This document shows, piece after piece, positions 16,442 to 54,247 of a DNA stretch of 64,000 nucleotides. The DNA lies in contig NZ_JAHCMU010000009.1 in assembly GCF_018449435.1 (NCBI RefSeq), positions 1-64,000 of the forward strand. Reading direction: 5' to 3'. This stretch comes from Flagellimonas sp. 389. GTDB taxonomy: Bacteria > Bacteroidota > Bacteroidia > Flavobacteriales > Flavobacteriaceae. The notes below the pieces were generated by a model. That model had not been told where the DNA came from. It searched no databases and worked only from the letters and a program-made list of their open reading frames with translations. The translations under genes and the position numbers were made by a program. Numbering within the stretch: position 1 is the stretch's first letter; the number at the start of each line of letters is the position of its first letter.

Positions 16442-16514
16442 GACCTGATAGCTCAGTTGGTAGAGCATCTCCCTTTTAAGGAGAGGGTCCTGGGTTCGAG
16501 CCCCAGTCAGGTCA
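16442..16514 (+). tRNA. tRNA-Lys (anticodon UUU)
   Basis: A complete 73-base cloverleaf. The acceptor GACCTGA pairs with TCAGGTC plus discriminator A; the D arm is GCTCAGTTGGTAGAGC; the anticodon stem TCTCC/GGAGA encloses loop CTTTTAA with anticodon TTT; the T arm is CTGGGTTCGAGCCCCAG. CCA is not encoded. Its 3' end is the left boundary of the mannan locus, and a decayed copy in the same orientation lies at 54.2 kb. Confidence 0.97.
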
Positions 16515-16538
16515 CAGGAACGGTTATCAAAGAAAACA

Positions 16539-16572
16539 AAAACCCTGCTAATTATATGATTGTCAGGGTTTT
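16539..16572 (+). terminator. Terminator after tRNA-Lys
   Basis: Stem AAAACCCTG/CAGGGTTTT with a 16-base loop, followed by ATG and eight T. The same hairpin in slightly different form follows the tRNA remnant at 54.2 kb. Confidence 0.8.
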
Positions 16573-16748
16573 ATGTTTTTTTTGGAAAATCATTTTGTTT
16601 GATAAAATATGGTATAAAAAGTTCACAAATCGTCAACATAACTCCAAAATGGTCATCTAAGCGATTACCTTCAACATCAGTTAGACATTCTCGTTGGAAA
16701 AAATAGAAAAACCTCAACCACTTATTATTAGTTTCTTCTTACATATTT

Positions 16749-18182
16749 CTATAATAATTCAGGGTAGTCTGTATGTAACTTTATTATCAGTTCACCAAAA
16801 AGTGTATTCGCCCAAGCAAACCAATCGCGTGTATAATCGTTAGGGTCGTCTTTGTGAAACGCTTCGTGCATGAACCCAGTTTCCGCATGGGTAGATTTGA
16901 GCATATTGAGACATTCTTTAATTTCTTCTTTGTCATTAGATGTCAACGCTCTTAAAATAATACCCATTGGCCATATTTTGTCTTTTCCTGTGTGTGGGCT
17001 TCCCTGTCCCTCGGCCACTTTTCCTTTTAAATAGTATGGATTTGCGTCACTGATCAAAAATGACCTGGTATTTTTATAAGTAGTTTCAGTCTGAAATTGA
17101 TTGCTAAGGTAAGCCAATGACATTAAGGAGGGTACATTCGCATCATCCATAAAAACTTTATTGCCATATCCATCCACTTCATATGCATAGATTTTTCCGA
17201 AATCTAGATGTTCCGAAATTGCATATTCATCGATTGCATTCTTAATTTCGTTGGCAAAGTCGTTACATTCTTCTGCAAATTCCGCGTCTTGTAAAACTTC
17301 ACTATAAATTTTCGTGAGCTGCCTGAGCGATAATTCCGCAAATATGTTCGAAGGAATTAGATACGGATATAGTGTGGCATCATCCGATGGCCGAAACATG
17401 GAACAAATCAAACCTGTATATTTAATGGGTCTTCCAGTACCTTCAAACAACGGTGCATCTGTCATTTTACTGGTTTTCCTTATAAATTTATAAGGTGATG
17501 AACCATCTTTTCGCTGTTCCGTTTTAAAAGTTTTTACAATTAATCTCATCGCCTTGTCCCAACTATCATCAAAAATCGAGGTATCGCCTGTCAGGTTAAA
17601 GTAACCGTCCGATAATCTAATAGTGTAGCAAAGCGAATCAATTTCCCATTTTCGTTCATGTACGCCTGGTACTGTTTTAGGAATATCATCGTTCCATTTG
17701 GAAACTTTGGATAAATCCTTATAAAAGGCATTTGCATATGGATCCAGTAAAACGCATTTTACCTGTCGGTTGATCAAACCAGTTATAAGATTCTTAAGTT
17801 TTTCATCTTTTTGAATCAATGGCATGTATGGCCATATTTGTGCCGTTGAATCCCGGAGCCACATCGCATCAATATCTCCTGTTATGATAAACGTATCCGG
17901 TCTACCATCAATTACTTCATGATCAACAGTGGTATCTAAAGTGTTCGGATAACAATTCTCGAACATCCAGGCCAACTCTTTGTCCTTTATAGAAGACTTG
18001 ACTTCAAGAATGAGTTTTTCTACTTCGGAACTTATGAATGTTCTCTTTTCCAAGGATGGTCTTCTCGATATAAAATCTTTTGAAACCTCTAGGAAACCCA
18101 TATCCAAAATGCTGTTCAACGGAAACAGTACAACTCCACTTAGGGCCAATGTATTATTCCTAAAAAAATCTCTTCTCTTCAT
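16749..18182 (-). CDS. GH125 exo-alpha-1,6-mannosidase
   Basis: A 477-residue glycoside hydrolase of family 125, metal-independent inverting enzymes that remove alpha-1,6-linked mannose. Family landmarks are FIITGDIDAMWLRDSTAQIWPYM (about 98-120), VLLDPYANAF, KWEIDSLCYTIRLSDGYF, FRPSDDATLYPYLIPSN, FMDDANVPSLMSLAYL and GSPHTGKDKIWPMGI. The N-terminus MKRRDFFRNNTLALSG is a twin-arginine (Tat) signal, so the enzyme folds before export to the periplasm. It lies at the tRNA-proximal end of the locus, 188 bases after a sulfatase gene on the same strand. Confidence 0.9.
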   Translation of the reverse strand: MKRRDFFRNNTLALSGVVLFPLNSILDMGFLEVSKDFISRRPSLEKRTFISSEVEKLILEVKSSIKDKELAWMFENCYPNTLDTTVDHEVIDGRPDTFIITGDIDAMWLRDSTAQIWPYMPLIQKDEKLKNLITGLINRQVKCVLLDPYANAFYKDLSKVSKWNDDIPKTVPGVHERKWEIDSLCYTIRLSDGYFNLTGDTSIFDDSWDKAMRLIVKTFKTEQRKDGSSPYKFIRKTSKMTDAPLFEGTGRPIKYTGLICSMFRPSDDATLYPYLIPSNIFAELSLRQLTKIYSEVLQDAEFAEECNDFANEIKNAIDEYAISEHLDFGKIYAYEVDGYGNKVFMDDANVPSLMSLAYLSNQFQTETTYKNTRSFLISDANPYYLKGKVAEGQGSPHTGKDKIWPMGIILRALTSNDKEEIKECLNMLKSTHAETGFMHEAFHKDDPNDYTRDWFAWANTLFGELIIKLHTDYPELL

Positions 18183-18370
18183 TTGTTTGACCTGCCTTTA
18201 AATTTTTAATTCACTGTTGATTTTTTCTATGGACGCTTAAAATCCAAAGCTTTGATTCCAAAATTTGTAGGACAACCATTGTTGCTTTGGAAATTAAAAA
18301 ACATAAAAGCTTTAAAATGGGTTTACAAATGAACTTATATGCTTCTTTGGGTCCTTTGCTTAAATAATTA

Positions 18371-19780
18371 TTATCCTTCGGGAACAAACCGTTTCATAAG
18401 CTGTTGTAATCTTTCGAGGTGTACTGTAGAGGCTTTATCATTCACTAAATTATTGGTTTCGCCTGGATCTATTTCAAGATGATACAGTTCAGGTGCCATC
18501 CCTTCCTCGATATATTGGATGTATTTCCACTTTTCAGTTCGGACGGCTTTCCAAGGACGGATTCGTGGTGCAACTTTTTCAAGGAAATATTCGGTTAAAA
18601 ATGCTTTGCGACCTTGAGTTTTAGCTTCTTTGAGCAAGGGCACCATGCTTTCGCCATCCATAGGTTCCAAGGGTACTACGCCTGCAAGCTGTAACAAGGT
18701 TGGTGCAATATCTATGTTCAAGACCATTTGTTCCCTAGTACTTTTAGATCTGATTACAGGAGGATATCGCATAAGCATAGGAATACGAATAACAGGATCA
18801 TACGCCCAACGCTTTATGTTGAACTCGCCATGCTCACCCATAAGCATACCATTATCGCTCACATAAACGATAATCGTATTGTCCAATATACTTTTATCTT
18901 CCAATGCCTTAAAAAATTGACCTATACCCTCATCTACACTTTTTAGGCAACGGTGTTGATCCCCAACTACGATATTTCGCTCCCGACCACGCCCCCTTCT
19001 AGATTCAGGAGGTTCTGGCAATACGTTTTGATACTCATAAAATTTCTTCCGATCTAAGGTCCTTCGCAAATGTGGTTTCCCAGCAAGGTCGTTTTTATCG
19101 ACCGTAATGGAATCAACCCTAAAATTCGGATAAAGCGACTCGTGCCTTTTGGCGGGAAGCAACGGCCAGTGAATTGCTTTGTGGGCGACAATCATAGCAA
19201 AAGGCTGGTTTTTATCGTACTCTTCTAAAAAAGTCAATGCTTTTTCATTGATAATATCCGTCATATAGCCCGTTGTCTGTATCCTTGTATCCTCATCATT
19301 GACGACCCCATCAATATAATCACCCTGCCCCTTAAAACTAAACCATCTATCATAACCTGGTCGGCGGGAGTCATCCAGACCCATATGCCATTTTCCAAAA
19401 AATGCCGTAGCATATCCTGATTCCCTCAACTGTCTAGGCCATGTCAAGAGTGTATGGCTTATAACATCTAAGCCCAATTTATCATTATTGATAACATTGT
19501 GATTGTGGGCATAGTTACCTGTAAGAAAGCTTGTTCTACTTGGCGAACATAAGGGCGTAACCACAAAAGCATTTTCAAAAACAACACCTTCTTTGCCGAT
19601 ACGATCAATATTCGGGGTATTGGAAGTTATATTGCCCTCGATACCCAATAATCCTTTTTGTTGGTCATCAGTTATGATGAAGATAATATTCGGTCTTTCG
19701 TTCTGCTGTTGCCCTATAGCACTGTCGGGGGAGAAAACCAATAGCAATAGCAAACTTGTTATATATGTAAGAATTTTCAT
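18371..19780 (-). CDS. S1 sulfatase A
   Basis: A 469-residue exported sulfatase removing sulfate esters from a glycan. It has a signal peptide (cut near SAIGQ), NIIFIITDDQQ (metal aspartates), the formylglycine motif CSPSR with Cys78, FFGKWHMG, IIVYVSDNGMLMGEHG and a C-terminal domain ending in a YHLEIDPGETNNL segment. The subfamily cannot be assigned by eye. It belongs to the minus-strand set ROK kinase, GmhA, sulfatase, GH125. It needs the formylglycine-making enzyme, which is not in this window. Confidence 0.9.
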   Translation of the reverse strand: MKILTYITSLLLLLVFSPDSAIGQQQNERPNIIFIITDDQQKGLLGIEGNITSNTPNIDRIGKEGVVFENAFVVTPLCSPSRTSFLTGNYAHNHNVINNDKLGLDVISHTLLTWPRQLRESGYATAFFGKWHMGLDDSRRPGYDRWFSFKGQGDYIDGVVNDEDTRIQTTGYMTDIINEKALTFLEEYDKNQPFAMIVAHKAIHWPLLPAKRHESLYPNFRVDSITVDKNDLAGKPHLRRTLDRKKFYEYQNVLPEPPESRRGRGRERNIVVGDQHRCLKSVDEGIGQFFKALEDKSILDNTIIVYVSDNGMLMGEHGEFNIKRWAYDPVIRIPMLMRYPPVIRSKSTREQMVLNIDIAPTLLQLAGVVPLEPMDGESMVPLLKEAKTQGRKAFLTEYFLEKVAPRIRPWKAVRTEKWKYIQYIEEGMAPELYHLEIDPGETNNLVNDKASTVHLERLQQLMKRFVPEG

Positions 19781-19817
19781 TTCGATACCTTTTAAAAGAG
19801 TTCTAGATGATTTAAAA

Positions 19818-20402
19818 TTAAAGATTCATCATTTTTTCGATACTGAAGATGACTGAATGAATAATTTTAATATGTATTTCTTGAATTCTATCTGCGTAGC
19901 CTTCATAAGGAACCAATAGCGAAATATCCGATAGCTGTTTCAATTTTCCGCCCGATTTTCCGGAAAGCAAAATAGTGGTCATGCCTTTGGTCTGTGCAGT
20001 TTTGAATGCTTGTACAATACTTTGTGAATTACCACTGGTACTTATTCCTAAAAGTATATCGCCAGAAGCTCCTATACTCTCCACAAATCTGGAAAATACA
20101 TATTCATAACCATAATCATTGCTGATACACGATAAATGACTTGGGTCAGAAATGGCAATTGCTGGCAATGGTGTGCGATTTTCCCGGTAACGTCCAGTCA
20201 GTTCTTCGGCAAAGTGCATTGCATCACAATGAGAACCGCCATTACCGCAGGATATTACTTTGTTTCCACGGTTGAACGCTTCGGTCATCTGCTTTGAGAT
20301 TTCCAGAATGGTACCAAAATTAGAATCGACAGTTATAAAATCATCAAGCACGTTTCGCGCTTGAATAAATTCTTTTTTTATGTTGCGCTGCAGATGCTCC
20401 AT
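19818..20402 (-). CDS. gmhA: Phosphoheptose isomerase (GmhA-type SIS protein)
   Basis: A 194-residue SIS-domain protein very close to E. coli GmhA, which converts sedoheptulose 7-phosphate to manno-heptose 7-phosphate for LPS heptose. Highly conserved stretches are [44 protein letters not shown] and [15 protein letters not shown], covering substrate and metal residues. The length is right. It starts 3 bases after the ROK kinase stop, so the two are a unit inside a mannan locus, far from any LPS gene here. Either it supplies heptose, or it has been recruited for a mannose-type phosphosugar; the sequence does not say which. Confidence 0.85.
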
Positions 20403-20405
20403 AGT

Positions 20406-21374
20406 TCATATTGTCAACATTGCCGCCCCAAACACGCCAGCACTATCTCCTAATTTTGGTTTCAGGAATGATGTTTCCAGCGTACTATTGAAAATATGTT
20501 GTTTTACGCGTTCTATGCCTTCCGTATACAGCAAATCGATATTACCCACACCCCCGCCTAAAACTATGGCCTCTGGGTCAAGAATATTAATAATGGAGGC
20601 AATAGCTTTGCCAAAGAAACCCAAGAGTCTTTCTGCCGTTTGTTCTGCATATTCATCATTTCCCTTTTCATAGGCTTCCATGATTTCTTTTAATGTCTTT
20701 CGATTTCCACCAAGTGATTTATAGTGACGTTCCAGAGCTGTTCCCGAAATTATGGTCTCTACGCAACCTTTTCGGCCACAATAACATTCACCACCTGAAG
20801 CATCCAAAAAATTATGTCCCCATTCTCCACCAATACCATGCTTCCCGTGTATGGACCGGCCATTGACAACCACACCACCACCTACGCCAGTTCCCATAAT
20901 TACACCAAAGACTACGTTGGCGCTTGGCAACTGTTCGGGTACTGAGCCCATGGTAGCTTCGGCCAATGCAAAGCAGTTGGCATCATTTGCAATTTCAACT
21001 TTAAATCCGAATAGTTCTTCCAAGTCTTCTTTTAGTCGCTTTCCATTCAAACAGACGGTGTTGCTATTTTTTAGGGTTTGCGTTCTAGGATCAAGAGTTC
21101 CTGGCGTGCCAATACCAAGTTTTGAGATTTGGACATCACCTTTTCCTTCGAGTTCGCCAACCAGTTTACCAATTTGGTCGAGGATATGTTTGTACCCTTT
21201 TTGTTGTTCCGTTGGTACGCGAAGCCTTTCGATTATTTCAAAATCATCGTGATTTTTAATGAGTACGATTCCTTCGATTTTAGTACCTCCTAAATCGATT
21301 CCGCAGAAAATTTGCTGTGTTTTGCTTTCCTTCAATTTATGTCCTTTTGAAAAGTTTAAGTAATCATTGACCAA
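20406..21374 (-). CDS. ROK-family sugar kinase
   Basis: A 322-residue cytoplasmic kinase. The ATP motif is GIDLGGTKIEG (25-35), the base aspartate D131 is in ANDANC, the segment GVIMGTGVGGGVVVNG follows, and H187 with Cys197/199/204 (CYCGRKGC) forms the zinc site typical of ROK proteins. By context it probably phosphorylates mannose or another released sugar. Glucose, fructose or N-acetyl sugars are equally possible from sequence. The start at 21374 gives about 20 extra residues before the core; a shorter form is not excluded. Confidence 0.85.
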   Translation of the reverse strand: MVNDYLNFSKGHKLKESKTQQIFCGIDLGGTKIEGIVLIKNHDDFEIIERLRVPTEQQKGYKHILDQIGKLVGELEGKGDVQISKLGIGTPGTLDPRTQTLKNSNTVCLNGKRLKEDLEELFGFKVEIANDANCFALAEATMGSVPEQLPSANVVFGVIMGTGVGGGVVVNGRSIHGKHGIGGEWGHNFLDASGGECYCGRKGCVETIISGTALERHYKSLGGNRKTLKEIMEAYEKGNDEYAEQTAERLLGFFGKAIASIINILDPEAIVLGGGVGNIDLLYTEGIERVKQHIFNSTLETSFLKPKLGDSAGVFGAAMLTI

Positions 21375-21502
21375 TTCAAAAATCTTGAAATATGGTGTTC
21401 AATAACTTCTATTTCGCAAATTGAAATACAAGTAAATATCAGATGGCATACATTGAATTTTTATAAAAAGTGCTTTTACTCAAAGTAATTTTCCAAGATA
21501 TA

Positions 21503-22906
21503 ATGACACAAAAAAATCATAGCACCAGTTTATTCATCTTGACCATTCTATTCTTTCTATGGGGATTTTTGACATGCATGAACGATATTCTAATTCCCTA
21601 TTTGAAGGAAATTTTCGTCTTGAAATATTGGCAGGCCATGTTGATTCAGTTCTGTTTTTTTGGGGCCTATTTTATAGGATCGTTGACCTATTTCTTGATT
21701 TCCTTAAAAAAAGGAGACCCTATCAATAGAATTGGCTATAAAAATGGAATCATCATAGGCCTAGCTGTTTCTGGATTGGGATGTTTTATGTTTTATCCCG
21801 CGGCTGAGTTTGCAATTTATGGCTTGTTCCTATCAGCTCTGTTCATCTTAGGACTTGGTTTTACGCTGTTGCAGATTGTGGCAAATCCATATGTATCGAT
21901 TTTGGGCAGACCAGAAACTGCTTCATCACGTCTAAATATGTCACAGGCCTTTAATTCTTTGGGAACTACGATTGCGCCAATTTTTGGAGGTTACCTCATC
22001 TATGAATTTTTCTTTATTGAAGGTGCTGAGGGTGATTCAGCCAAAATACCCTACGTCATCTTTGGGGCTGTTTTTATATTTCTTGCTATTGTATTCAGGT
22101 TTGTTAAGCTACCTAGATTCAAGAATGAGGATGAAATCGTTAAAGGTATTGGCGCATTGCGTTTTCCCAACTTGTCCATGGGAACAATAGCAATATTCAC
22201 CTATGTCGGTGCCGAAGTCGCAATTGGAAGTTTTTTGATAAATTTCATTGGACTTGAAAGCATTATGGGACTGGACGAATCTGTGGGGAAAAATTTTCTG
22301 GCCTATTATTGGGGTGGTACTATGATAGGTCGTTTTTCGGGGGCGCTATCACTCAGCAGTCTGGATAAATTTAAAAAATACACGTTCATGATTGTTTTGA
22401 CAGCCCTTTCTTTCACTTTAATCTTTGCCATATCTGGAATTGAATTTAACACGGTGTTACCCTATATTGGTATAGTTGGCTTGAATTTTTTAGTATTCTT
22501 GGTAGGAAAAAGTATCCCATCTAGAACCTTGGGACTATTCGCTGTTATGAGTGCAGGCTTGGTGCTATTTACGATAATGGGCACGGGCAGTGCAGCAATG
22601 TGGGCACTTATAGGAGTTGGTATCTTTAATTCGATAATGTGGTCGAACATTTTCACTATAGCAATCAAAGGCCTTGGAAAGTATACCAGTCAGGGTTCTT
22701 CGTTACTTGTAATGGCAATTCTTGGGGCTGCCCTAGTTCCATTGATTCAAGGAATAATGGCTGACACCTTCGGCTTACAGTTTTCATTCTTTGTGCCTTT
22801 TGTATGTTATCTGTATATCATCTTTTACGGCTTTTATAGCCCTAGGTTAACCAAGACAGATGAGTCTCTTGAAGAAGTAGAGCCTAAGAATGTATTACAG
22901 GACTAA
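21503..22906 (+). CDS. FHS-family (FucP-like) MFS sugar transporter
   Basis: A 467-residue inner-membrane proton symporter with about 12 hydrophobic segments. The start MTQKNHSTSLFILTILFFLWGFLTCMNDILIPYLKEIF is the FHS signature shared by FucP and glucose/galactose importers; later SRLNMSQAFNSLGTTIAPIFGGYLI and IGRFSGAL. It should bring the released monosaccharide, probably mannose, across the inner membrane for the divergently encoded ROK kinase. ATG 21503 is preferred to 21470, since the conserved region begins a few residues on. Confidence 0.88.
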   Translation: MTQKNHSTSLFILTILFFLWGFLTCMNDILIPYLKEIFVLKYWQAMLIQFCFFGAYFIGSLTYFLISLKKGDPINRIGYKNGIIIGLAVSGLGCFMFYPAAEFAIYGLFLSALFILGLGFTLLQIVANPYVSILGRPETASSRLNMSQAFNSLGTTIAPIFGGYLIYEFFFIEGAEGDSAKIPYVIFGAVFIFLAIVFRFVKLPRFKNEDEIVKGIGALRFPNLSMGTIAIFTYVGAEVAIGSFLINFIGLESIMGLDESVGKNFLAYYWGGTMIGRFSGALSLSSLDKFKKYTFMIVLTALSFTLIFAISGIEFNTVLPYIGIVGLNFLVFLVGKSIPSRTLGLFAVMSAGLVLFTIMGTGSAAMWALIGVGIFNSIMWSNIFTIAIKGLGKYTSQGSSLLVMAILGAALVPLIQGIMADTFGLQFSFFVPFVCYLYIIFYGFYSPRLTKTDESLEEVEPKNVLQD

Positions 22907-22959
22907 GTGCTTATTACAGGAATACAAAATGTTTTACGTTGGTAAGTAGAATACATTGT

Positions 22960-25248: not shown

Positions 25249-25440
25249 CCAGCACCTTACTTTGATTAAAAAAAGAAATTTAAAATTAGGGTGCTTAGCA
25301 ATACTGCTATTTTGAAAAATAAGAGACAATATAATTCACTTAAAATCACTTTAAGTTCTATACTAAATTCTTGGAGGCAAATCTTAATGCAACATTTACA
25401 TATTTCAACATGTGTTCAGTTATCAAAACATACACACCCT

Positions 25441-26544: not shown

Positions 26545-26660
26545 TCCTTATTGAAAATTAATCAAGTATAACTATCATTCGAATTTAATTTAATAATAAG
26601 AATGAAACCATCCATTACCAATAAATACCTTTAGAAATCGTCAAACTTCAGTTTAAAAGA

Positions 26661-33856: not shown

Positions 33857-36800
33857 ATGATGAAAATGTTGTTGAAAAAAGAAACAATAGCTTTCTGTAT
33901 ACTTTTTTGTGGGCTAAGTACAATTATGTATTCCCAACAAATTACAGGAACAGTAACGGACCCTGGTGGTGTTCCATTGTCGGGCGCCACAATTATTGAA
34001 AAGGGCACCACCAATGGTGTCCAAGCAGACTTTGATGGAAACTATACCATTATACCGAGCAATGATAACGCTATATTGGTCTTTTCATATATTGGATTTT
34101 CCAATAAGGAAGAAAATGTAAGTGGTAGGACAACCATTAATGTTACATTGCAAGAAGATGTTTCAAAACTGGACGAAGTCGTTGTCATAGGATATGGAAC
34201 ACAGCGACGTCAAAATGTTTCTGCTGCTATATCCACAGTAGACTCCGAAGCTCTAGAAGGTAGGCCCGTTGCAGATTTTCAAAGCGCACTGCAAGGGCAA
34301 GTTGCAGGGTTACAGATTACGAGTAATTCAGGTAGACCGGGCGCAGGGAACAATATCCAAATAAGAGGTGCAGGAACAATTACAGGTAACAGTAGTCCGC
34401 TTTATGTTATTGACGGCGCTATAGTAGAAAATGGTATCGGTGGTGGCGGTGATCCCTTTGCCACAATAAATCCAGCTGATATCGCATCTATAAATGTATT
34501 GAAAGATGCTTCTGCAGCGGCGATTTATGGTGCAAGGGCAGCCAATGGGGTAATCATCGTTACTACTAAAAAAGGAAAGCCAGGTAAAGCTAGCATCAAT
34601 TTCAATACTTTTAGTGGCTTTCAGAATGTAACGAACAAACTTGACCTTTTAGATTCCCAACAGTATCAAGAAGCTTACAATACTGCTAGAGATAATGCTG
34701 GACAAGCTAGAATACCAAACCTTGATGGCACTACGATAACCACCAATACAGATTGGCAAGATGCCATATTAAGAACTGGAATCATACAAAACTATGAGTT
34801 AAGCGCTTCTGGTGGCAATGAAAAAACAAGATATTATACATCTGTAGCACATTATGATGAGGAAGGTATTGTATTGAACACGGGTTTGGAACGAACTACC
34901 TTGCGTTTTAATTCGACTACCGAACTGGGCAAGTTCACTTTTGGTAATTCGATTACCTATTCCCGTTCTGTATTTGATAGGGAATATTCAGGGAATGGTT
35001 TCAATGTTCTCAATTGGGCAATCAGAAACCCACCAACAGTTGAAGTTTTCAATCCAGAAACGGTCGGTGGTTTCGGCGGACCTGTCGAAGATGATGGTAA
35101 TGATAGAATTCTGAATCCTGTTGCTGCACAATCGCTTATCACGAACCAAAGTACGGTGAACAGATTACTGGGCAACATTTACGGGGCATATAAAGTTCTG
35201 GATGGTCTTGAGTTTAAAATAAGTGTCTCCGCAGATTTGAATACCTTCAAAAATCGAGAGTATTCCCCTTTCTTCAATCAAATTCCTGGGGCTGGCGTAG
35301 GTTCTGTAGTAACATTGGACGATGGGGCTTTTGTTGAAGAGCGCAGGGGAGATGGCAATTCGTTTATCGTTGAAAACACTTTGAACTATCGAAAGGATTT
35401 CAATAAGCATACTGTTGATGCCCTTATTGGCTTCACTACCCAAGAGCGTACCAATAGTTTCATGGAGGCAAGAAATGTGGGCGGAGCCATTAGCGATGGT
35501 TTTCCAGTTTTGACCGCTTCTGTAGATGATAATTTAGGAGCGGCAACAGGTACCATCTCCGAAGTACGTACTGTTTCCTATATCGGAAGGATGATCTATG
35601 ATTATGATGACCGCTATTTGGCCACCGCCAATTTTAGGAGGGATGGTTCATCCGTATTCTCTGCAGGCAATTATTTTGACAATTTTTTTTCTGGATCTGT
35701 TGGATGGGTCGTTAGCAATGAAAAATTTCTAAGAAATAGCGAAGCTATCAGTAACCTAAAGATTAGGGCCAGTTATGGTTTTCTAGGTAACGATCGTATC
35801 AATGCCAATGCGGCAAGATCGACCCTGCAAAACAACATACGCTATATTTTAGGTATCAATGGAGAAGAAGTTTTGGGAACAGCCAGAGCAGGTAGAGTGG
35901 GAAACTCGGCCTTACAATGGGAAAAGCAGGAACAATTGAATATTGGTCTTGATGCAGCATTTGCAAAAAATAAATTAACACTTACCGCCGACTATTTTGT
36001 GAAGAGTTCTATTGATCTACTTCTCAATTTTGATTTACCCGAAACCACCGGTTTTAACAATATCATCATTAATTCAGGTGAAGTGGAAAACAGAGGATTG
36101 GAACTGGCCATTGGCTATCGTGATCAGTTTGGTGATTTCAGCTTCGGATTTTCTGCGAATGCAACATTTTTGGACAATGAGGTAACACAACTTACGGACG
36201 GGTTGGATTTTATAGGCAGGAATTCTAGTAATCTCTATGGAAATCAACCAAGAAACAGAGTTGAGGTAGGCAGGCCTATTTCATCCTTTTTTGGTTACAG
36301 AGTCGAAGGTATTTATCAATCCCAAGAAGAAATTGATAATGGCCCTACACCTATAGCTGCGGCCCAACCGGGTGATTTGCGTTTTTCAGATGTTAGTGGG
36401 CCCGATGGTGTTCCAGATGGTATTATAAACGAGGATGACCAGACTTTTATAGGTGATGCAACACAAGATCTACAATACGGCTTTAGCCTTAATTTAGGTT
36501 ACAAGGGCTTTGATCTTTCGGCACAGTTTCAAGGTGTAGCAGGTAATGATATTTGGAACGATACTAAATTCAATACAGATACTTATTTTCTTTCTGGTAA
36601 CCTATCTACACGCGTTTTAAATGCGTGGACACCTGAAAATCCATCCAACACAGTGCCAAGAGCAACAACCGATGCTACGTTCTTCGCACAACCTTCATCA
36701 TTTTACGTGGAAGACGGATCATACCTTAGACTCAAAAACCTACAGGTAGGCTATTCCTTTTCTGTAGGAACACTAGACCAGATCGGTGTGGGTCTTACAA

Positions 36801-36970
36801 ATGCCCGAATTTATTTTGCAGGACAAAATATTTTTACAATTACCAATTACAGTGGCTATGATCCAGAGATAGGGATAACAAATCCCAATAACAGTAATGC
36901 ACTTGGCTTTGACAACGTATCATACCCCCAAGCAAGAACTTTAACTGTGGGACTTCAATTAGGATTTTAA
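33857..36970 (+). CDS. SusC-like TonB-dependent transporter 1
   Basis: A 1037-residue outer-membrane importer of oligosaccharides. In order: signal peptide (ending near TIMYSQ), carboxypeptidase-D-like domain (ITGTVTDPGGVPLSGATIIEKGT...DGNYTI, about 29-100), a TonB-box-like LDEVVVIGYGT, the plug domain (VSAAISTVDSEALEGRPVADFQSALQGQVAGL) and a 22-strand barrel to the end (SYPQARTLTVGLQLGF). Directly followed by its SusD partner 7 bases on. It is expected to import mannan fragments for the periplasmic mannosidases and sulfatases. Confidence 0.95.
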   Translation: MMKMLLKKETIAFCILFCGLSTIMYSQQITGTVTDPGGVPLSGATIIEKGTTNGVQADFDGNYTIIPSNDNAILVFSYIGFSNKEENVSGRTTINVTLQEDVSKLDEVVVIGYGTQRRQNVSAAISTVDSEALEGRPVADFQSALQGQVAGLQITSNSGRPGAGNNIQIRGAGTITGNSSPLYVIDGAIVENGIGGGGDPFATINPADIASINVLKDASAAAIYGARAANGVIIVTTKKGKPGKASINFNTFSGFQNVTNKLDLLDSQQYQEAYNTARDNAGQARIPNLDGTTITTNTDWQDAILRTGIIQNYELSASGGNEKTRYYTSVAHYDEEGIVLNTGLERTTLRFNSTTELGKFTFGNSITYSRSVFDREYSGNGFNVLNWAIRNPPTVEVFNPETVGGFGGPVEDDGNDRILNPVAAQSLITNQSTVNRLLGNIYGAYKVLDGLEFKISVSADLNTFKNREYSPFFNQIPGAGVGSVVTLDDGAFVEERRGDGNSFIVENTLNYRKDFNKHTVDALIGFTTQERTNSFMEARNVGGAISDGFPVLTASVDDNLGAATGTISEVRTVSYIGRMIYDYDDRYLATANFRRDGSSVFSAGNYFDNFFSGSVGWVVSNEKFLRNSEAISNLKIRASYGFLGNDRINANAARSTLQNNIRYILGINGEEVLGTARAGRVGNSALQWEKQEQLNIGLDAAFAKNKLTLTADYFVKSSIDLLLNFDLPETTGFNNIIINSGEVENRGLELAIGYRDQFGDFSFGFSANATFLDNEVTQLTDGLDFIGRNSSNLYGNQPRNRVEVGRPISSFFGYRVEGIYQSQEEIDNGPTPIAAAQPGDLRFSDVSGPDGVPDGIINEDDQTFIGDATQDLQYGFSLNLGYKGFDLSAQFQGVAGNDIWNDTKFNTDTYFLSGNLSTRVLNAWTPENPSNTVPRATTDATFFAQPSSFYVEDGSYLRLKNLQVGYSFSVGTLDQIGVGLTNARIYFAGQNIFTITNYSGYDPEIGITNPNNSNALGFDNVSYPQARTLTVGLQLGF

Positions 36971-36977
36971 AATAAAA

Positions 36978-38555
36978 ATGAGAAAAATGAGAAAACATAA
37001 TAAGGCCGTTTCAACTATTCTAAAACTAAGTATATGCACTTTCGTGGCATTGCTTTTCACAAGATGTGGTGATAGCTATCTTGAGGATGCTTTGGTGGCT
37101 ACACAGTTAGAGGATGGTAATTTCTTTGCAAGTCAAGAAGACGCCGTAAGTGCACTTAATGCAACTTATGACCCTTTCCATTCAGGGGGTTATTTCAAAT
37201 ATCACTACATAAGTATAGGTCATATGGCCGGTGACACACGACAGACAGATGGCACTACCCAACCCGCGGAACAGGCTTATCCAGGATTTAAATTCAATGC
37301 AGGTACAGGACATTTGATACCTGGTGTATGGAGAGCATGTTACCTAGGTATTCAAAGGGCTAATAATTCTATTGCTGGAATTACGGATATGGACGATGTA
37401 TTGTTTTCAAATCCTGAGCTAAAACAACAATATATTGCTGAGGCACGTTTTCTAAGGGCATTCTACTATTTTGAACTTGTTCGCTTATATGGCGGTGTCC
37501 CACTTATCACTGAAGTATTTGATGGTGATATTACTAATGAAACAGCTATTTTCCCCACCCGTAACAGTGTTGAAGAAGTGTATGCCCAGATTGAAAGTGA
37601 CTTCATGGCAGGAGCAGACAATTTGCCCAATAGCTATAGTGATGCAGATATAGGGCGTCCAACCGCTGGTGCGGCACAAGCCTTTCTTGGTAAAGCATAT
37701 TTGTATCAAAAAAAGTATGCCCAAGCAAGGGATGCCTTTAAATCTATTATAGATGGTAATTTCGCAACATATGTTTTGACCGAAAATTTTGGGGAGACCT
37801 TCACATTGGCAGGTGAGAACAATGCAGAATCTGTTTTTGAGATTCAATTTCAATCCGGTTTCGGCACCGCATTTGCAGTTCCCGTGAATGAAGCCAATTG
37901 GATTGCCAATTGGTTTAATCCTACCGCACAATTTCCGTTCGGTTTTAGAAACTCCGTACCTTCAAAACAAGCAATAGAATTTTTCGAGCAATATCCCGAG
38001 GAAGATGCCGAACGTAGATTTTATACTTATGCTAAACCAGGAGACACATGGGGAAGATGGGATCCTGTAGCAGAAGATCCTGTAGCCGCGCAACAATGGC
38101 GTGCCAGAAATATATTGGTTCCCTATCCTGACGATCCAGATTTTCAGTTATTGGCCATTCGGAAGCACTCTGGTGGATTTGAGGAACGCGGCGGGTTTAA
38201 CCAAAATCCCAATAATCATAGAGTAATGCGATATTCAGACGTACTATTGATGTTCGCTGAAGCAGAAAACGAAGTCAACGGACCTAGCGGTGATGCTTAT
38301 AATGCCATAAATATGGTTAGGCAACGTGCAGGCGTACCAGTTGTAAGTGGTCTTTCAAAGGAAGAATTTTTTGAGCAAATCGTGGTAGAAAGACGACTGG
38401 AATTTATGTATGAATTCCACAGATATTTTGATTTACTTCGTTGGGGAAGGGGTGACGAAATGCCAGGTTTTGTGGCCAACAAGAATGAATTGTTACCAAT
38501 ACCCGCAGCACAGGTAACGAACAACCCTAATTTAAATCAGAATCCTGGGTATTAA
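36978..38555 (+). CDS. SusD/RagB-like glycan-binding lipoprotein 1
   Basis: A 525-residue surface lipoprotein capping the SusC barrel. Lipobox LLFTRC (Cys about 31). Helical TPR-like core with AEARFLRAFYYFELVRLYGGVPLI, GAAQAFLGKAYLYQKKYAQARDAF and the C-terminal VVERRLEFMYEFHRYFDLLRWGR...NELLPIPAAQV...NPNLNQNPGY. Full length and typical. Its ligand should be the mannan target of the locus. Confidence 0.95.
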   Translation: MRKMRKHNKAVSTILKLSICTFVALLFTRCGDSYLEDALVATQLEDGNFFASQEDAVSALNATYDPFHSGGYFKYHYISIGHMAGDTRQTDGTTQPAEQAYPGFKFNAGTGHLIPGVWRACYLGIQRANNSIAGITDMDDVLFSNPELKQQYIAEARFLRAFYYFELVRLYGGVPLITEVFDGDITNETAIFPTRNSVEEVYAQIESDFMAGADNLPNSYSDADIGRPTAGAAQAFLGKAYLYQKKYAQARDAFKSIIDGNFATYVLTENFGETFTLAGENNAESVFEIQFQSGFGTAFAVPVNEANWIANWFNPTAQFPFGFRNSVPSKQAIEFFEQYPEEDAERRFYTYAKPGDTWGRWDPVAEDPVAAQQWRARNILVPYPDDPDFQLLAIRKHSGGFEERGGFNQNPNNHRVMRYSDVLLMFAEAENEVNGPSGDAYNAINMVRQRAGVPVVSGLSKEEFFEQIVVERRLEFMYEFHRYFDLLRWGRGDEMPGFVANKNELLPIPAAQVTNNPNLNQNPGY

Positions 38556-41189: not shown

Positions 41190-41192
41190 ATT

Positions 41193-46144: not shown

Positions 46145-46148
46145 AAAA

Positions 46149-46322: not shown

Positions 46323-46433
46323 AGCTATACAATGAAGATACTTTGGGGTCGGGTATTGCAATAGAAAATACTTTTCCTGTGAGGCTTCGAAGTGAACACC
46401 ACTCAACCTATATAATACAATGCTTATTTTTTA

Positions 46434-47990: not shown

Positions 47991-48054
47991 CTTACTGTTA
48001 AATGAAGTGGGCTACTCTATCTTCCATGACGCAATTTATTGAAATTAAGAACTC

Positions 48055-49086
48055 TCATTTTTTGCCATTTGAAATAAGTGGTACAGCTCCCACCCCTTCA
48101 AAAGTCATTTTTATGGGCTTTATAGTGCCATCATCGTTAAATTCCATTTTATCAATACAAACAACTCTATGGTTTCGATGTTCGTTGGGTATGGGTCTAC
48201 GATGATAAACAATGTACCAATCATCTGTATCTGGCATATGCAGTACCGAATTATGTCCAGCGCCTGTGGCAATATTAGGGTCAGATTCTAAAATAGTCGC
48301 TATCCTATCAAACGGACCGAACGGTCTATCTGCAACGCCATAGGCTACTTTGTAAGAATCTTTTCCCCAACTGCCTTCGGACCACATCATGTAATATTTC
48401 TCCTCACGGTAGAACATTAATGGGCCTTCAACATAATTTTCTGGTGTAATCTCCTTTACAAGTTGTCCGTCTTCAAACGGTACCAAGTCCGTAAAATCAT
48501 CATTTAACTTTCCAATGTTGCATCGGCCCCAACCACCATATACAATATAGTAAATCCCATCCTTGGCTTTAAAGACAAACTGATCTATCGGTTGGGCTTT
48601 GTTCAAAACCTTACCGATCAATGGTTTGCCAATATGATCGGTATAGGGTCCTTGCGGTTTTCTGGATACCGCAACGCCGATTCCACCCACTTCCGTACTA
48701 TCATGTTTTTGCGGATCCCACCAATGACTGTCGGGAGTCTGAATATCGTTGGCGCTGAAAAAGACAAAGTATTTTCCATCTTTTTCAATTGCCGAAGGTG
48801 CCCATAGCTCATTGTTTATCCATGCCACGTTCTTGGGTGTTACTATGTTCTCATGCTTTTTCCAGTTGACCAAATCCTTGGAGGAAAAGGCATCCATAAA
48901 ATCCTGTTTTTTTACAATTCCCGAAAAAGTGGGAAATATCCAGTATGTATTATCGAAGATTACGATTTCTGGGTCGGCGTACCACTCTTTTAATATGGGA
49001 TTGCCAGTTTTTACTTCTTGTTGTGCATTGATTTTTACAGAAATGGATAAGAAAATAATCAATAAAAAGAATCTGTAATATGTCAT
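48055..49086 (-). CDS. GH43-type five-bladed-propeller glycosidase
   Basis: A 343-residue exported enzyme (signal peptide ending KINAQ). The three carboxylates expected in family 43 can be placed: base D38 in WYADPEIVIFDNTYWIFPT, modulator D168 in PIDQFVFKAKDG, and acid E220 in YVEGPLMFYREEKYYMMWSEG. Members cleave arabinose, xylose or galactose linkages with inversion, so here it probably trims a side sugar. It is convergent with sulfatase E and divergent from the large T9SS protein. Exact subfamily not assignable. Confidence 0.82.
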   Translation of the reverse strand: MTYYRFFLLIIFLSISVKINAQQEVKTGNPILKEWYADPEIVIFDNTYWIFPTFSGIVKKQDFMDAFSSKDLVNWKKHENIVTPKNVAWINNELWAPSAIEKDGKYFVFFSANDIQTPDSHWWDPQKHDSTEVGGIGVAVSRKPQGPYTDHIGKPLIGKVLNKAQPIDQFVFKAKDGIYYIVYGGWGRCNIGKLNDDFTDLVPFEDGQLVKEITPENYVEGPLMFYREEKYYMMWSEGSWGKDSYKVAYGVADRPFGPFDRIATILESDPNIATGAGHNSVLHMPDTDDWYIVYHRRPIPNEHRNHRVVCIDKMEFNDDGTIKPIKMTFEGVGAVPLISNGKK

Positions 49087-49272
49087 GGTTGAATGTGTTA
49101 TTTAAGTTAAGTCGAGTTCGCTAAAACTTCAGAATCTTGAAAATGAACTACTACCGCAATTAAAAGATTACACCTACATAATAGCTTTTGATTTACAAAT
49201 CCATCGTTTTAGCTCAACACATTTTATGATTTTCGTTAAGAATTAGTTAAAAAACTGATAAACCCCATAACA

Positions 49273-52200
49273 ATGAAAACAAAAATTACTTTACTGATTT
49301 TTTTCCTTTCCTTATTCGTTGTACATGCACAAATACAGGTAACAGAAGGAACCACGATTTCCAACAATCCTAATATTATAGGATGTAATAACAACACTAC
49401 CCTTATAGAAGAACCTTGGAACAACGAGAATAGAATATCATCATTGATTGAGTCAAGAGTGACGAACCTACGCTTTCCTGGCGGAACGGTATCCGAGAAC
49501 TGGGATTACAGAAACGATACTTTTTTCCCTGCCAAAGGAACTTCAGGTAGTGAGGATGGTTGGGTAGACCCCACACAAATGATAGGGTTTGTAAAATCGA
49601 TTATAGAAAACGGAACGGGAAAGATCAACTCCATCGAAAATTTTTCAAAAGCACAAGAAGCCAATGATTTTCAGCCCGTGTACGTTATGAACATGACCAC
49701 TCCGGGTCTAGATTATTATGCCGAGAAATTCAGTGTCCCAGAGGATAGTGAAACTTTTCAACCCTTGCAACCAGATTGGTGGCGGGCTTTTGAGGACAGG
49801 TTGCAACGTAATTTAGAGATGTTGAGGCGTGCCGAGGCAAGTGGAATGCCCGTTAAATTTATAGAACTGTCCAATGAGGTATATTTTGGTGCTGGAAAAT
49901 ATCAATTCTTGAATTTTCAAGGCTTTAGGGAAGACAATGCGGGATTCGGTTACCCTGAAGCATGCCATTACTTTATAACCGAAATAAAAAAGGAATTTCC
50001 GAATGCCAAATTCTCTGCCGTGGCCTACTTCGACACAGAAGGTTCTGAAGGAAAACGGAAGGACTTTTGGAACGGCTACGTCATTCCTAGATTGGATAGA
50101 AATCTGGTCGACGCGCTTACCATGCATGCGTACATAGAGTCAAATCCCAACCAAACGGCAACAAATCAGGCTGAATTGAATACGATGTTAGATTCTTTTC
50201 GTACAGTATTCGACCAAGCAAAGATCAATACCGATTTTGCCAATGTGGTAACTGCCGCTAATTGGGACGTTTGGTGGACAGAGTACATGCCCAATTTTTT
50301 TAATATCGGTGCTGGAGTCAACCAGGATAGGTTCAGTTGGGAAAATGCACTGGTCGTAAATTATAACATTGCCAGTTATCTCGAATTGCCATCCTCAGAA
50401 CTTTTACAGATGCATGAGTTCAGTGGGATGACTACCAATAATGGAGGCATAAATGCCGTTGGTCGTGCAATTTCTTTGGCCAGTTTGGCTACTTCCGGAA
50501 TGGATCAACGGCAAGAATTGTCTTTTTCTGGAATTTCCAACCTTGCTGGAACAAATGTTCCAGAGCTATTTGGTTTCTCATTTTCGGACAATAACAATAA
50601 AAACTTTTGGATTACCAATGCGAGCGGAGAGAATAAAACATTGGATATTTCCAATTTGGGGTTTTCAGGTAAAGTCATGTACCAATCCGCCGGTACGCTG
50701 GGGAGCAAAAACGATCCGATGGAAACAGTCATTCTACCTAATGGTACCATCGAACTTCCGCCTAATTCCATAACCACATTGTTGACTACTAACCTACCCG
50801 ATATTCAAGTGGTTGCAGGAGTTGATTTAACCCTGGAAGATGGTGGTACATTCGATTTTGGAACCTTACGGTTGGGGAGCAATGGCGTTGTAAATGATTT
50901 TGAAATCACAAATTTAGGAGGTGGCAATCTCAATCTTTCGAACATTACCATTGATGGAGCAAACGCAAACGATTTTCAGATTACGGTACAGCCCAGCACA
51001 TCTTTGGCCAATAGGGAAAATACGATTTTATCCATTAAATTTGAACCTACCGGTGATGGTACACGCGCTGCAACAGTGAACATTGCCAACAATGACCCGG
51101 ATGAGTCCCCATTTAGTTTTACCTTAACGGGAACAACATCACGAGCCTTTGCTTTTAATCGATTGGATGTTACGGTGATTGCAGATGGTTTCAAGGACAT
51201 TCCATATAACGGCAATGATTCGGGAAAACAGAATACCGGATTGCGTTTGACTTCTTTTGGAAGGGTCAAAGATACAAACGGCAACAGCCTTTACACAATT
51301 TGGAGGGTAAGGAACTCATCAGAAGAGAACAAACAGGTAGTTCTAAAATCTGTCGACAACAGTTTTGATTATCCATTTACCATCAAGAAAAACAAAGAAG
51401 CTTTTATCCGAAGTACGTACATCACCAATAGTGCAACGCATAAATTATTCTTTGAGGGAAACAATCTGGACACCAAAGCTTCTAGCCAAACTAGTTATGC
51501 AGATGGGAGAACTGTTTTTGTTGCCAAGAATGGAAACGTAGGTGGAGCAAACCCACCAGGAAGTGTAAGTTCATCCAACGGCGCATTTACCATGGATGCT
51601 TCAGGGTCTGGAATTAATGGAACCTCGGACCAATTTAGATTTATCTATGAAAGACTGGAAGGTGATTTTGAATTTACCACAAAACTATCAACGGTACCAC
51701 AGACAGGAATTTTTGGAATTATGGTGCGTAAATCAAATGTTGCGGACAGTGAAAACCTGTTTCTGGGATTATCGGACGCAACAGCATTGGTACTTCAACA
51801 AAGAACAATGCGTGGCATTGAAACAGAACAAATTTCTACAGTAAGTGCATCTGCACCAATATGGTTAAAGGTCGACCGCTCTGGGAATAGGTTTACTGCT
51901 TCGTATTCAACAGATGGGATAGCTTTTGAAGTTCTGGAAAGCACCATTGTTGTATTTCCTTTTGAGGTATCATTGGGACTTGCAGGCTCAAGTACCATTA
52001 ATGGTCAGCTTGCTACGGCTGTTTTTGAAGAAGCTGTCATAGTTCCAGACTCAGGGCAGCCTGAACCGGATATAGCCCTTTATGATGCAGGAACAAACAC
52101 TTTGATAGCGAGCGGTTCCTTGGATTTTGGCCTTATTGATTTAAATACTTCCAAGACCAAGACTATAAATGTGACAAATGTAGGTACAGCTTTATTACAG

Positions 52201-53673
52201 CTCAACAGTATTGTGGTAGAAGGGCCCGATGCACAACTTTTTACCTTTCAGAACCAAACTGGCAATACATTGGAGCCTGGAGCATCTGCTGCATTGGAAG
52301 TAACGTTTACTGCTTCGCAATCCAGTTCAAGAAGGGCGAGTTTGATTATTGAAAGTAATGACCCCGAAGAAGCAACGGTTACATTATCGCTGAACGGTCA
52401 GGGACCTGGGAACCTTTTGAGTAATGGGGATTTTGAAGACCCATCAAAAACGCCTTGGACAAATGCAGGAACGGTTGTAGATGATCAAACCAATGCGAGG
52501 TCGGGCAGTAAAGCACTTCGCTTGTTTTTACCGCAGGACACGCCCGAAGGTTCACGCTTTTTTGGTGCGGTACAAACAGTACCTGTACAACCATTGGGAC
52601 AATACTCGGTACAAGGTTATTTTAAAGGAGAACGGACTTCTGAAACGGGCGCTTTCCGGATTTTAATAAAGTTTTTGGATGCGGGCAACAATGAAATTGG
52701 ACAGGCTACCTCTAATTTCTTTGCCAACTCGCCCAGTTATAAATTGATGACGACCAGCTTTACCACTCCCGAGGGCTGTACACAGGTAGAGGTAACGCCT
52801 CAGATTTTGGCAGCTACAGGAACTGCATGGTTCGATGATATTGAAATGGCGGACAATAGCAATAGCGAACCCACAAGTATTCTAAGAAATGGTGATTTTA
52901 ATAGCGGTCAAAAAAGTCCATGGACGAATGGCGGTACCGTAGAAACAGATATTGTGAATGCACAGGGCGCCGAAAGTCCGATCATGCGACTTTTCCGTTC
53001 TTCGAAAGGCTTTAGCGGATCTAGACAATTGGTAAAAATCAACGAGGGTAGTACGTACAACTTATCAGGAAAAGTTAAAAGGTCGCTTACCGAAGGATTC
53101 TCTCGATTTTTTGTTCAATTTGTTGATGAAAACGGAAGTTACATTCAAGATGGAAATGGAAAGAATATTACCAAGGCTACTCAATTTGGCAGTTTTGGTG
53201 GTGTGGACCTAACCTATAAATTCATTGGTTTGAACAACATTGTTCCGCCTACTGGCACAGCAAATATGGAGATTAACCTTCAGCTTTTCAACGGCACTGG
53301 CTCTGTATGGTGGGAAGATATCAGGTTAGAAGAAATACTTCCTGCTACAAGCAGTACGGCACTAAGAGCTTCGATTCCTATAGAATCCATCGATTCTGAC
53401 GGGCTATTTGCATTGTATCCCAACCCAGCATCAGAATACGTAACGGTTTCTTTTTCTGAGTTACAACGGGAATCTGGGCTTACAAAAGAAATTATAAAAG
53501 TTCGGATTTATGATATGACGGGAAGAGTAATAGCAAGTTATTCGTATGGTCCAAATCAATTTGCAAAAGATAGCATCATCGTGCCTGTGGAAACACTGGA
53601 AGAAGGACTGTATATTTTTAAGATTGGTTTTGTAAATGGTGATACCGAAGAAAAACTCCTTCGGATAAATTAA
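49273..53673 (+). CDS. Multidomain T9SS-secreted putative glycosidase
   Basis: A 1466-residue protein: signal peptide (1-20); a (beta/alpha)8 clan-A-like hydrolase domain (about 20-510) with NLRFPGGTVSENWDYR (65-80), candidate acid/base N201-E202 in FIELSNEVYF and candidate nucleophile E337 in WWTEYMP; a HYDIN/choice-of-anchor-like beta domain (about 510-620); a beta region (630-740); a concanavalin-like domain (about 770-930, YERLEGDFEFTTKL); a second anchor-like domain (about 945-1065); two jelly-roll CBM-like domains (about 1068-1210 and 1215-1360, each NGDF...SPWTN); and a T9SS tail (from about 1390: LFALYPNPASEYV...KLLRIN). It is the only T9SS cargo here, hence probably surface-bound or released. 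Confidence 0.78.
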   Translation: MKTKITLLIFFLSLFVVHAQIQVTEGTTISNNPNIIGCNNNTTLIEEPWNNENRISSLIESRVTNLRFPGGTVSENWDYRNDTFFPAKGTSGSEDGWVDPTQMIGFVKSIIENGTGKINSIENFSKAQEANDFQPVYVMNMTTPGLDYYAEKFSVPEDSETFQPLQPDWWRAFEDRLQRNLEMLRRAEASGMPVKFIELSNEVYFGAGKYQFLNFQGFREDNAGFGYPEACHYFITEIKKEFPNAKFSAVAYFDTEGSEGKRKDFWNGYVIPRLDRNLVDALTMHAYIESNPNQTATNQAELNTMLDSFRTVFDQAKINTDFANVVTAANWDVWWTEYMPNFFNIGAGVNQDRFSWENALVVNYNIASYLELPSSELLQMHEFSGMTTNNGGINAVGRAISLASLATSGMDQRQELSFSGISNLAGTNVPELFGFSFSDNNNKNFWITNASGENKTLDISNLGFSGKVMYQSAGTLGSKNDPMETVILPNGTIELPPNSITTLLTTNLPDIQVVAGVDLTLEDGGTFDFGTLRLGSNGVVNDFEITNLGGGNLNLSNITIDGANANDFQITVQPSTSLANRENTILSIKFEPTGDGTRAATVNIANNDPDESPFSFTLTGTTSRAFAFNRLDVTVIADGFKDIPYNGNDSGKQNTGLRLTSFGRVKDTNGNSLYTIWRVRNSSEENKQVVLKSVDNSFDYPFTIKKNKEAFIRSTYITNSATHKLFFEGNNLDTKASSQTSYADGRTVFVAKNGNVGGANPPGSVSSSNGAFTMDASGSGINGTSDQFRFIYERLEGDFEFTTKLSTVPQTGIFGIMVRKSNVADSENLFLGLSDATALVLQQRTMRGIETEQISTVSASAPIWLKVDRSGNRFTASYSTDGIAFEVLESTIVVFPFEVSLGLAGSSTINGQLATAVFEEAVIVPDSGQPEPDIALYDAGTNTLIASGSLDFGLIDLNTSKTKTINVTNVGTALLQLNSIVVEGPDAQLFTFQNQTGNTLEPGASAALEVTFTASQSSSRRASLIIESNDPEEATVTLSLNGQGPGNLLSNGDFEDPSKTPWTNAGTVVDDQTNARSGSKALRLFLPQDTPEGSRFFGAVQTVPVQPLGQYSVQGYFKGERTSETGAFRILIKFLDAGNNEIGQATSNFFANSPSYKLMTTSFTTPEGCTQVEVTPQILAATGTAWFDDIEMADNSNSEPTSILRNGDFNSGQKSPWTNGGTVETDIVNAQGAESPIMRLFRSSKGFSGSRQLVKINEGSTYNLSGKVKRSLTEGFSRFFVQFVDENGSYIQDGNGKNITKATQFGSFGGVDLTYKFIGLNNIVPPTGTANMEINLQLFNGTGSVWWEDIRLEEILPATSSTALRASIPIESIDSDGLFALYPNPASEYVTVSFSELQRESGLTKEIIKVRIYDMTGRVIASYSYGPNQFAKDSIIVPVETLEEGLYIFKIGFVNGDTEEKLLRIN

Positions 53674-53696
53674 GATTTGATTGATTAGCGCGGCAA

Positions 53697-53734
53697 CCCA
53701 TTGAACGATACAACATGTTCAATGGGTTTCTTTT
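53697..53734 (+). terminator. Terminator after the T9SS glycosidase gene
   Basis: A perfect 10-bp stem CCCATTGAAC/GTTCAATGGG with a 10-base loop, followed by TTTCTTTT, 23 bases after the stop. Confidence 0.88.
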
Positions 53735-54123
53735 AATTTTTAAAAAAAGTATTTATGAGGATCCATTTCTTTTCTTTTGAGATTCTATTAGTTCCATACC
53801 TGTATGAATTCAAGTCATAATTGTGGAGCACTTATATTATCGGTATAGTTCTTTTTTCCTTTTTCCGTGATTTTATTTCTTACGCACTAATTGATGGCGA
53901 TTTTGTTACCGGACAGTAAGCAAACGCTGTAAAACTGTTGTTGGAAAGAATATCTAAATAACGAAATGATAGTAAAAATAAACCTCAATCCATTATAGGT
54001 GTGGTATCGTATTAAACTAATTATTCAAAAAACCTATTTTATGGATAAATCATTAACTTTAAATCACGAAAGCAAATTTGACATAATGCTTTGATTTAGC
54101 ATTCACTAATCGTCAAAAAAAAT

Positions 54124-54189
54124 AAACAATTAGCGAGCAACCGACTTTAACCAGCCTCCCAACTGCGGGTTCAAACCTCAGTAAGGTCA
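54124..54189 (+). pseudogene. Decayed tRNA-Lys copy (possible attachment-site repeat)
   Basis: The 3' half matches intact tRNA-Lys at 16.4 kb. The 44 bases from GGGTTC (54167-54210 against 16492-16535) differ at six positions by eye, running through the T arm, acceptor 3' strand and flanking sequence. Upstream, TAGC...GAGCA recalls the D arm with its loop lost, and CCGACTTTAACC resembles an anticodon arm that no longer pairs. The acceptor 5' strand is gone. It cannot form a cloverleaf. Orientation is the same as the intact gene. Confidence 0.75.
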
Positions 54190-54213
54190 CTGGAACGGTT
54201 ATTAAAGAAAGAC

Positions 54214-54247
54214 AAAACCCTGCCAATTTAATAATCGGCAGGGTTTT
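54214..54247. terminator. Terminator following the tRNA remnant
   Basis: An 11-bp stem AAAACCCTGCC/GGCAGGGTTTT with a 12-base loop, then ACTTTTTT. It corresponds to the hairpin behind intact tRNA-Lys, with a longer stem, and may also end the converging SusCD operon (-). Confidence 0.85.

Follow-up and report, generated by a model that had tools for sequence, protein, structure and literature searches.

The window analyzed here, a 64,000-nucleotide stretch of the Flagellimonas sp. 389 genome (G000), contains an interval at positions 16502–54190 that very probably (~0.85) is a fossil integrative-element slot, bounded by attachment sites and built by a tyrosine-recombinase element at the 3′ end of tRNA-Lys. 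Two traits by which islands are recognized were assessed at the ends of the interval: an intact tRNA gene faces a direct repeat of its 3′ part at the opposite end, and no integrase is present within the window's slot beside the tRNA. As the integrase is not in the slot, the interval is referred to as a slot, or decayed island, and not as an intact element. A composition unlike that of the host, which is not an essential feature of islands, was not observed. In the proposed mechanism, a tyrosine-recombinase element would have entered at the 3′ end of tRNA-Lys by recombining within CCCAGTCAGGTCAC. Entry would have restored an intact tRNA at the left, the element adding its own hairpin and inner repeats, and a tRNA fragment with the old hairpin would have remained at the right end of the element. 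The integrase would later have been lost from the window's slot, which a locus of the sulfated-mannan type now occupies nearly end to end. That these ends belonged to an element which brought in the mannan genes as its cargo is marginally favored.

The intact tRNA-Lys(ttt) gene at the left end of the slot (16442–16515, + strand) was called by ARAGORN and matched Rfam RF00005 at 16442–16514 with 72.8 bits. The segment 16492–16596, which includes the T arm, acceptor end and downstream hairpin, recurs in the same orientation at 54167–54267 (80% over ~105 nt, E = 1.5e-20). A preliminary description of the DNA had counted six differences in 44 bases between 16492–16535 and 54167–54210 and had noted a related hairpin after each copy. 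Both observations were borne out, the similarity continuing across the AAAACCCTG...CAGGGTTTT hairpin. The local alignment score for the two copies was 66.1 compared with 23.5 for the best random window pair, the control consisting of up to 1000 pairs from the window with pairs <600 bases apart excluded. When the assembly of 4.16 Mb was searched at the DNA level with tRNA-Lys, eight places matched: the gene itself, the right-hand copy, five other tRNAs (Asn, Gly, Met, Gly, Val) and a single place where no tRNA was called.

The right-hand copy contains a 3′ fragment of tRNA-Lys (54167–54190, + strand), located by DNA search and alignment score, which is decayed with 4 mismatches in 23. No 5′ half of a tRNA was detectable at this copy: the 55 nt upstream scored 6.0, a value equalled by 986 of 2000 shuffles. 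An anticodon-arm-like similarity that was perceived by eye upstream of 54167 was rejected as no better than shuffles. The proposed crossover region of the window is the left core CCCAGTCAGGTCAC (16502–16515, + strand), assigned from a core that is common to attL, attR and the empty site in the G042/G041 pair described below. The core in the right fragment (54177–54190) has 2 mismatches. The terminator-like hairpin that follows the intact tRNA (16538–16583, + strand) was read from the sequence and is conserved in the left ends of relatives, as if supplied by the left end of the element; a simple terminator scan gave no entry for it. The right-hand hairpin (54214–54256, + strand), assigned from its likeness to left hairpins, is closest to the left hairpin of G040 (84.6% over 78 nt), followed by those of G039 (84%) and of the window itself (80%). 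It may derive from an earlier occupant or an older site, and its resemblance favors a left end that once belonged to an earlier occupant, of the same family, and was displaced.

A 17-nt repeat is found on the inner side of both tRNA copies. The left inner repeat, TTCACAAATCGTCAACA, is exact (16622–16638, + strand), and the right inner repeat, TTCACTAATCGTCAAAA, has 2 mismatches and is positioned 66 nt before the tRNA fragment (54102–54118, + strand). These repeats are putative integrase-binding sites. The genome includes six sites with ≤2 mismatches to the repeat; at ≤3 mismatches there were 25 sites compared with 18 for a reversed-pattern control, which is little difference, and the argument therefore rests on the position of the repeat and not on its number. 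A left-end profile built without G000 and G039 detected the window at 16578–16642 (E = 1.3e-11) and G039 (E = 2e-5), and a right-end profile built in the same way detected G039 (E = 9.1e-7), the match to the window's right end being weak (E = 0.32). The inner right end that is common to the window and G039 (54038–54166, + strand, blastn) is 73% identical between the two over 130 nt, compared with 60–64% for five other elements and with a mean of 58% and a maximum of 64.8% for random 128-mers. A third inner-repeat-like site with 2 mismatches is located on the same strand at 61054–61070, 7 kb beyond the right end. No tRNA fragment is visible after this site, which is a weak candidate that may mark an older right end. 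The earlier remark that no integrase is visible also was confirmed: no convincing integrase or clear relic was found in the window, the best match (E = 0.005, 55025–55141) lying outside the cargo, and none of the 16 Phage_integrase matches in the genome falls on the window's contig.

The tRNA-Lys site was examined in searches of 71 genomes of the genus, including that of the window, 64 of which were oriented at tRNA-Lys. The seven unoriented genomes were G051, in which no tRNA-Lys was called, and G046, G048, G055, G059, G060 and G061. The sequence examined after tRNA-Lys extended from 1.9 kb (G008) to ~130 kb and mostly was 8–19 kb, with right ends located farther away being missed. A full-length tyrosine integrase occurs ≤3 kb after tRNA-Lys in 17 of the 64 genomes and a partial match in seven, and each of six integrases scanned possessed Arm-DNA-bind_5, Phage_int_SAM_5 and Phage_integrase domains. 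The TTCACAAATCGTCAACA repeat (≤2 mismatches) begins at +177 to +180 from the start of tRNA-Lys, likewise in 17 of 64 genomes: eight of these have a full integrase, four a partial match and five, among which are the window and G039, have none. The same repeat precedes the tRNA-Lys 3′ fragment by 66–69 nt in G000, G004, G018, G032, G037, G039 and G042. We infer that an integrase built the slot in the window.

Other arrangements also were encountered at this site. A second integrase subfamily, 38–40% identical to the first, is located after tRNA-Lys in nine of the 64 genomes without the TTCACAAATCGTCAACA repeat, and several of these genomes have GGTGCGCA-like repeats in its place. The tRNA-Leu(gag) gene is situated 52–53 bp after tRNA-Lys in three genomes (G022, G053 and G066) and 105 kb away, at contig position 121293, in the genome of the window. 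SusC-like genes are present within 18 kb of tRNA-Lys in 18 of 64 genomes, a raw count with no matched background.

The mode of insertion is evident from an empty/filled pair of genomes, G041 and G042, in which the 600 bp to the right of the G042 fragment correspond to the sequence directly after tRNA-Lys in G041 (98.8%). The left end of G042 has the order tRNA, a different hairpin, repeat and integrase. G017 and G037 form a weaker pair (83% over 177 bp). When eight right ends were compared with the tRNA-Lys flanks of other genomes, a partner that matched from the first base was found for G042 and G037 only and not for G000, G039, G018, G032, G027 or G004; the right ends of G000 and G039 match other tRNA-Lys flanks in the hairpin part only. 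The elements in G042 and G004 have 8.2 kb in common at 92% identity and 1.6 kb at 89%, and the 615-bp right flank of G042 has no match in the right flank of G004. Elements at tRNA-Lys recombine in CCCAGTCAGGTCAC, restore the tRNA, supply their own left hairpin and leave the old hairpin at the right. The similarity between the two ends passes beyond the tRNA into the terminator because elements at this site bring their own terminator.

An empty site joining 16514 to 54189, which had been suggested as a sign of insertion, did not turn up in the searched genomes of the genus, and neither did an empty site for this exact locus. G040, whose left end is 97% identical to that of the window, was considered as an empty site and was rejected as it carries its own integrase; a search of 127 kb of G040 revealed no right end. 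Directly after tRNA-Lys in G015 there are a hairpin, one inner repeat, ~67 nt, a tRNA fragment and a second hairpin, an arrangement that fits a collapsed slot, the scar of a lost element, produced by deletion between two inner repeats.

Two of the six repeat sites in the genome of the window frame a 52-kb element on contig C1, which is bounded by 3′ fragments of tRNA-Asp and has the same end layout as that at tRNA-Lys. The integrase of this element is 54–57% identical to four first-subfamily integrases at tRNA-Lys, and the element encodes a TraG ATPase, a coupling protein and TraM. The element spans 269.4–321.9 kb, and efflux genes accompany its integrase and conjugation genes. A further integrase at tRNA-Asp itself (251.5–253 kb) adjoins it. 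Thus, the original proposal of insertion at a tRNA gene is supported by the integrase-bearing elements of congeners with the same ends and spacing, by the G041/G042 pair and by an element in the same genome that has conjugation genes and the same end layout.

The cargo of the slot is a 20-gene utilization locus of the sulfated-mannan type (16749–53673), annotated with Pfam and NCBIfam. The families represented are GH125, GH92, GH38, GH43, five sulfatases, SusC/SusD, an AraC-type regulator and an MFS transporter, and further genes specify a ROK kinase, a SIS-domain protein and an ADP-ribosylglycohydrolase-family protein. A 476-aa protein has a weak transporter match, a 377-aa protein has a DUF4432 match below threshold, a 528-aa protein shows a weak arabinofuranosidase match only, and a 1466-aa protein ends in a T9SS tail. 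No integrase, conjugation or relaxase families were detected among the 20 cargo proteins scanned. The combination of a SusC/SusD pair with GH92 and several sulfatases, by which utilization loci of this type are recognized, is present, and judged from gene content the substrate probably is sulfated alpha-mannan. The comparison of GC content and codon use with the flanks that the preliminary description advocated was negative: GC content is 0.398 in the cargo compared with 0.388 in the flanks, and the codon distance between the two was reached in 134 of 1000 label shuffles, so that the composition is not unlike that of the host.

The flanks of the slot, together with both of its ends, are found again in G039, the nearest relative of the window's genome: the left flank matches up to window position 16655 (92.3%), and the right flank matches from 54038 onward (88.7%). 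The interior between these same ends in G039 is 46.8 kb in length and is a different cargo, in which neither a tblastn match of ≥45% identity to the window's cargo proteins nor, at E 1e-5, any nucleotide-level similarity to the cargo was found. The right neighbors of the slot, which encode SusD, SusC and a PfkB-type sugar kinase (54386–60900), are common to G039. The Ks values of flanking genes in G000 and G039 are very uneven, ranging from 0.03 to 1.03, and the 100 bp that precede tRNA-Lys are identical in the two genomes, a pattern expected if tracts of recombination ended close to the slot. Within 8949–16441, Ks relative to G039 is 0.03 for an outer membrane protein and 1.03 for an S4 protein. 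In the G039 island, a module resembling a left end also lies on the opposite strand, ~34 kb after tRNA-Lys (E = 1.3e-13, obtained with a profile that included the left end of G039 itself), and perhaps is an inverted second element.

The distribution of the cargo is patchy. The SusD protein of the locus was detected in 2 of 71 genus genomes (up to 20 candidates scored per genome) and, with the window's own genome included, in 3 of 397 sampled genomes of the family (3 candidates scored per genome). G020 carries 18 of the 20 locus genes in the same order (G020 contig C1:219555–260900), with four additional genes near one end and with Sulf1 and Sulf5 absent; the matches to the latter two (28% and 26%) do not represent orthologues and were disregarded. 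The 190–290 kb region of G020 showed no tRNA, inner repeat or integrase of this kind, making this a copy of the locus without such ends. The site in the window's genome that corresponds to the G020 locus is without the entire 66-kb block. Homology with G020 begins 88 bp inward of the left conserved end (16743 compared with 16655) and stops 289 bp short of the right conserved end (53749 compared with 54038). The mannan locus thus takes up almost the whole slot.

Between the G000 and G020 copies of the locus, Ks is 0.35–0.57 for five genes and 0.79–1.62 for nine others. Of six core genes, five gave values of 1.10–2.40 and one was saturated; the ranges for locus and core genes overlap (TktA, AraC and GH38 were dropped due to stops in the aligned stretch, and Tgt was saturated). 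The five low values suggest horizontal exchange, and the mannan locus probably was acquired horizontally. The SusC/SusD proteins (33857–38555) are 67% and 47% identical to those of G020, with Ks >2.6, and protein identity is 80–97% for 13 further genes that are common to both loci and could be aligned usably. The pair seems to have been exchanged within an otherwise similar locus.

The preliminary description had seen in the interval, which holds nearly the whole mannan locus, the usual layout of an element inserted at a tRNA gene. Insertion at the tRNA stands; however, the tRNA fragment and the mannan locus are separable, because G039 retains the fragment with other cargo and G020 has the locus without a tRNA, and the fragment need not date from the mannan locus. 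It probably was left by an element that entered before the split of G000 and G039, with the mannan locus as the present occupant. The occurrence of the same genes at an unrelated site with the tRNA remnant still in place, which had been named as evidence against insertion, was encountered in half measure: G020 has the locus at a site without a tRNA.

A substantial possibility, short of even odds, is that an integrative element made the slot and that the mannan locus entered later by another route, for example by homologous recombination between conserved flanks or fossil ends, and replaced an earlier cargo. This scenario departs from the explanation favored here in the last step only. It gains from the presence in G039 of the same ends and flanks around other cargo, from the G020 locus, which has no tRNA, repeat or integrase of this kind in the 190–290 kb region, and from the uneven Ks of the G000 and G039 flanks (0.03 to 1.03) and the identical 100 bp before the tRNA, as recombination would leave. 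Against it, cargo delivery is a simple explanation for a locus that takes up almost the entire slot, and a donor with the locus between these ends was not found. A wider speculation, which is unlikely, holds that integrase-built tRNA slots outlive their integrases and become passive sites at which whole sugar loci are swapped by homologous recombination. If so, this would account for the two ends that G000 and G039 have in common, with no cargo gene detected in both, and for the apparent lack of mobile DNA in many such locus islands.

Delivery by an element at tRNA-Lys also accounts for the ends better than an old tandem duplication of tRNA-Lys and its terminator that was split later by insertion, an alternative raised in the preliminary description and now highly improbable. 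The inclusion of the terminator in the similarity is compatible with duplication, as are the two intact tRNA-Lys genes 10.3 kb apart in G038, the second of which is at a contig end and the first of which is followed by a truncated integrase. Nevertheless, the right copy has no tRNA 5′ half, inner repeats are present at fixed spacing at both ends, and G041/G042 show displacement of the hairpin without duplication. That the ends resemble each other by chance and the locus is ordinary inherited chromosome can virtually be discounted: base composition and codon use do agree with the flanks, but the alignment score (66.1, with 23.5 the highest for random pairs), the scattered occurrence of the locus and its absence between the same ends in G039 speak otherwise.

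The movement of large sugar-utilization loci among environmental Bacteroidota mostly has been a matter of indirect inference so far. The slot is an instance of two different cargoes lying between the same ends in sister genomes. Its ends are still legible, and their tRNA fragment, displaced hairpin and regularly spaced inner repeat are a signature to seek beside other loci. Porphyran loci sit on ICEs. Work on gut Bacteroidetes places polysaccharide utilization loci on mobile elements (PMC6907783). The window similarly has a SusC/SusD-containing locus linked to a mobile element, but differs from those cases in the environmental genus, the slot without integrase and the other cargo in a sister genome. 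In Bacteroides ovatus/xylanisolvens, another report describes locus islands between core genes with no mobile DNA, and its authors consider ICE entry at tRNAs with later deletion to be one possibility (PMC8845570). The same report notes many sugar loci between core genes without a mobility gene and treats the role of mobile elements as unsettled. The window matches the islands as described there in its variable sugar-utilization cargo, fixed neighbors and lack of a mobility gene inside, whereas its element ends still are recognizable.

Among known tRNA-integrated elements, ICECleSHZ29 of Chryseobacterium (PMC12561888) and the 10K island of Riemerella anatipestifer (PMC6764341) offer the closest comparison. 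Insertion at a tRNA gene with direct repeats is common to these elements and the window (at the 3′ end in ICECleSHZ29). However, the two elements use other tRNAs (Met, Glu, Arg) and have an intact integrase and perfect repeats, whereas the window's slot has lost its integrase and has a decayed right repeat, with one sugar-utilization locus as its cargo. Loci for sulfated alpha-mannan, including that of diatoms, are described from Polaribacter, Formosa and others (PMC13063451, PMC6298971), and the diatom pathway involves GH195. The window's locus is similar to those loci in gene content, with SusC/SusD, GH92 and several sulfatases, and differs from them as described there in having GH38 and GH125. 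None of the titles and abstract openings among the matches listed from the open-licence literature reported the locus beside a tRNA gene. G297, which carries the locus and is only distantly related, has a similar integrase (42–45% identical to the first subfamily) ~24 kb beyond the locus, situated behind what by eye is an apparent tRNA fragment.
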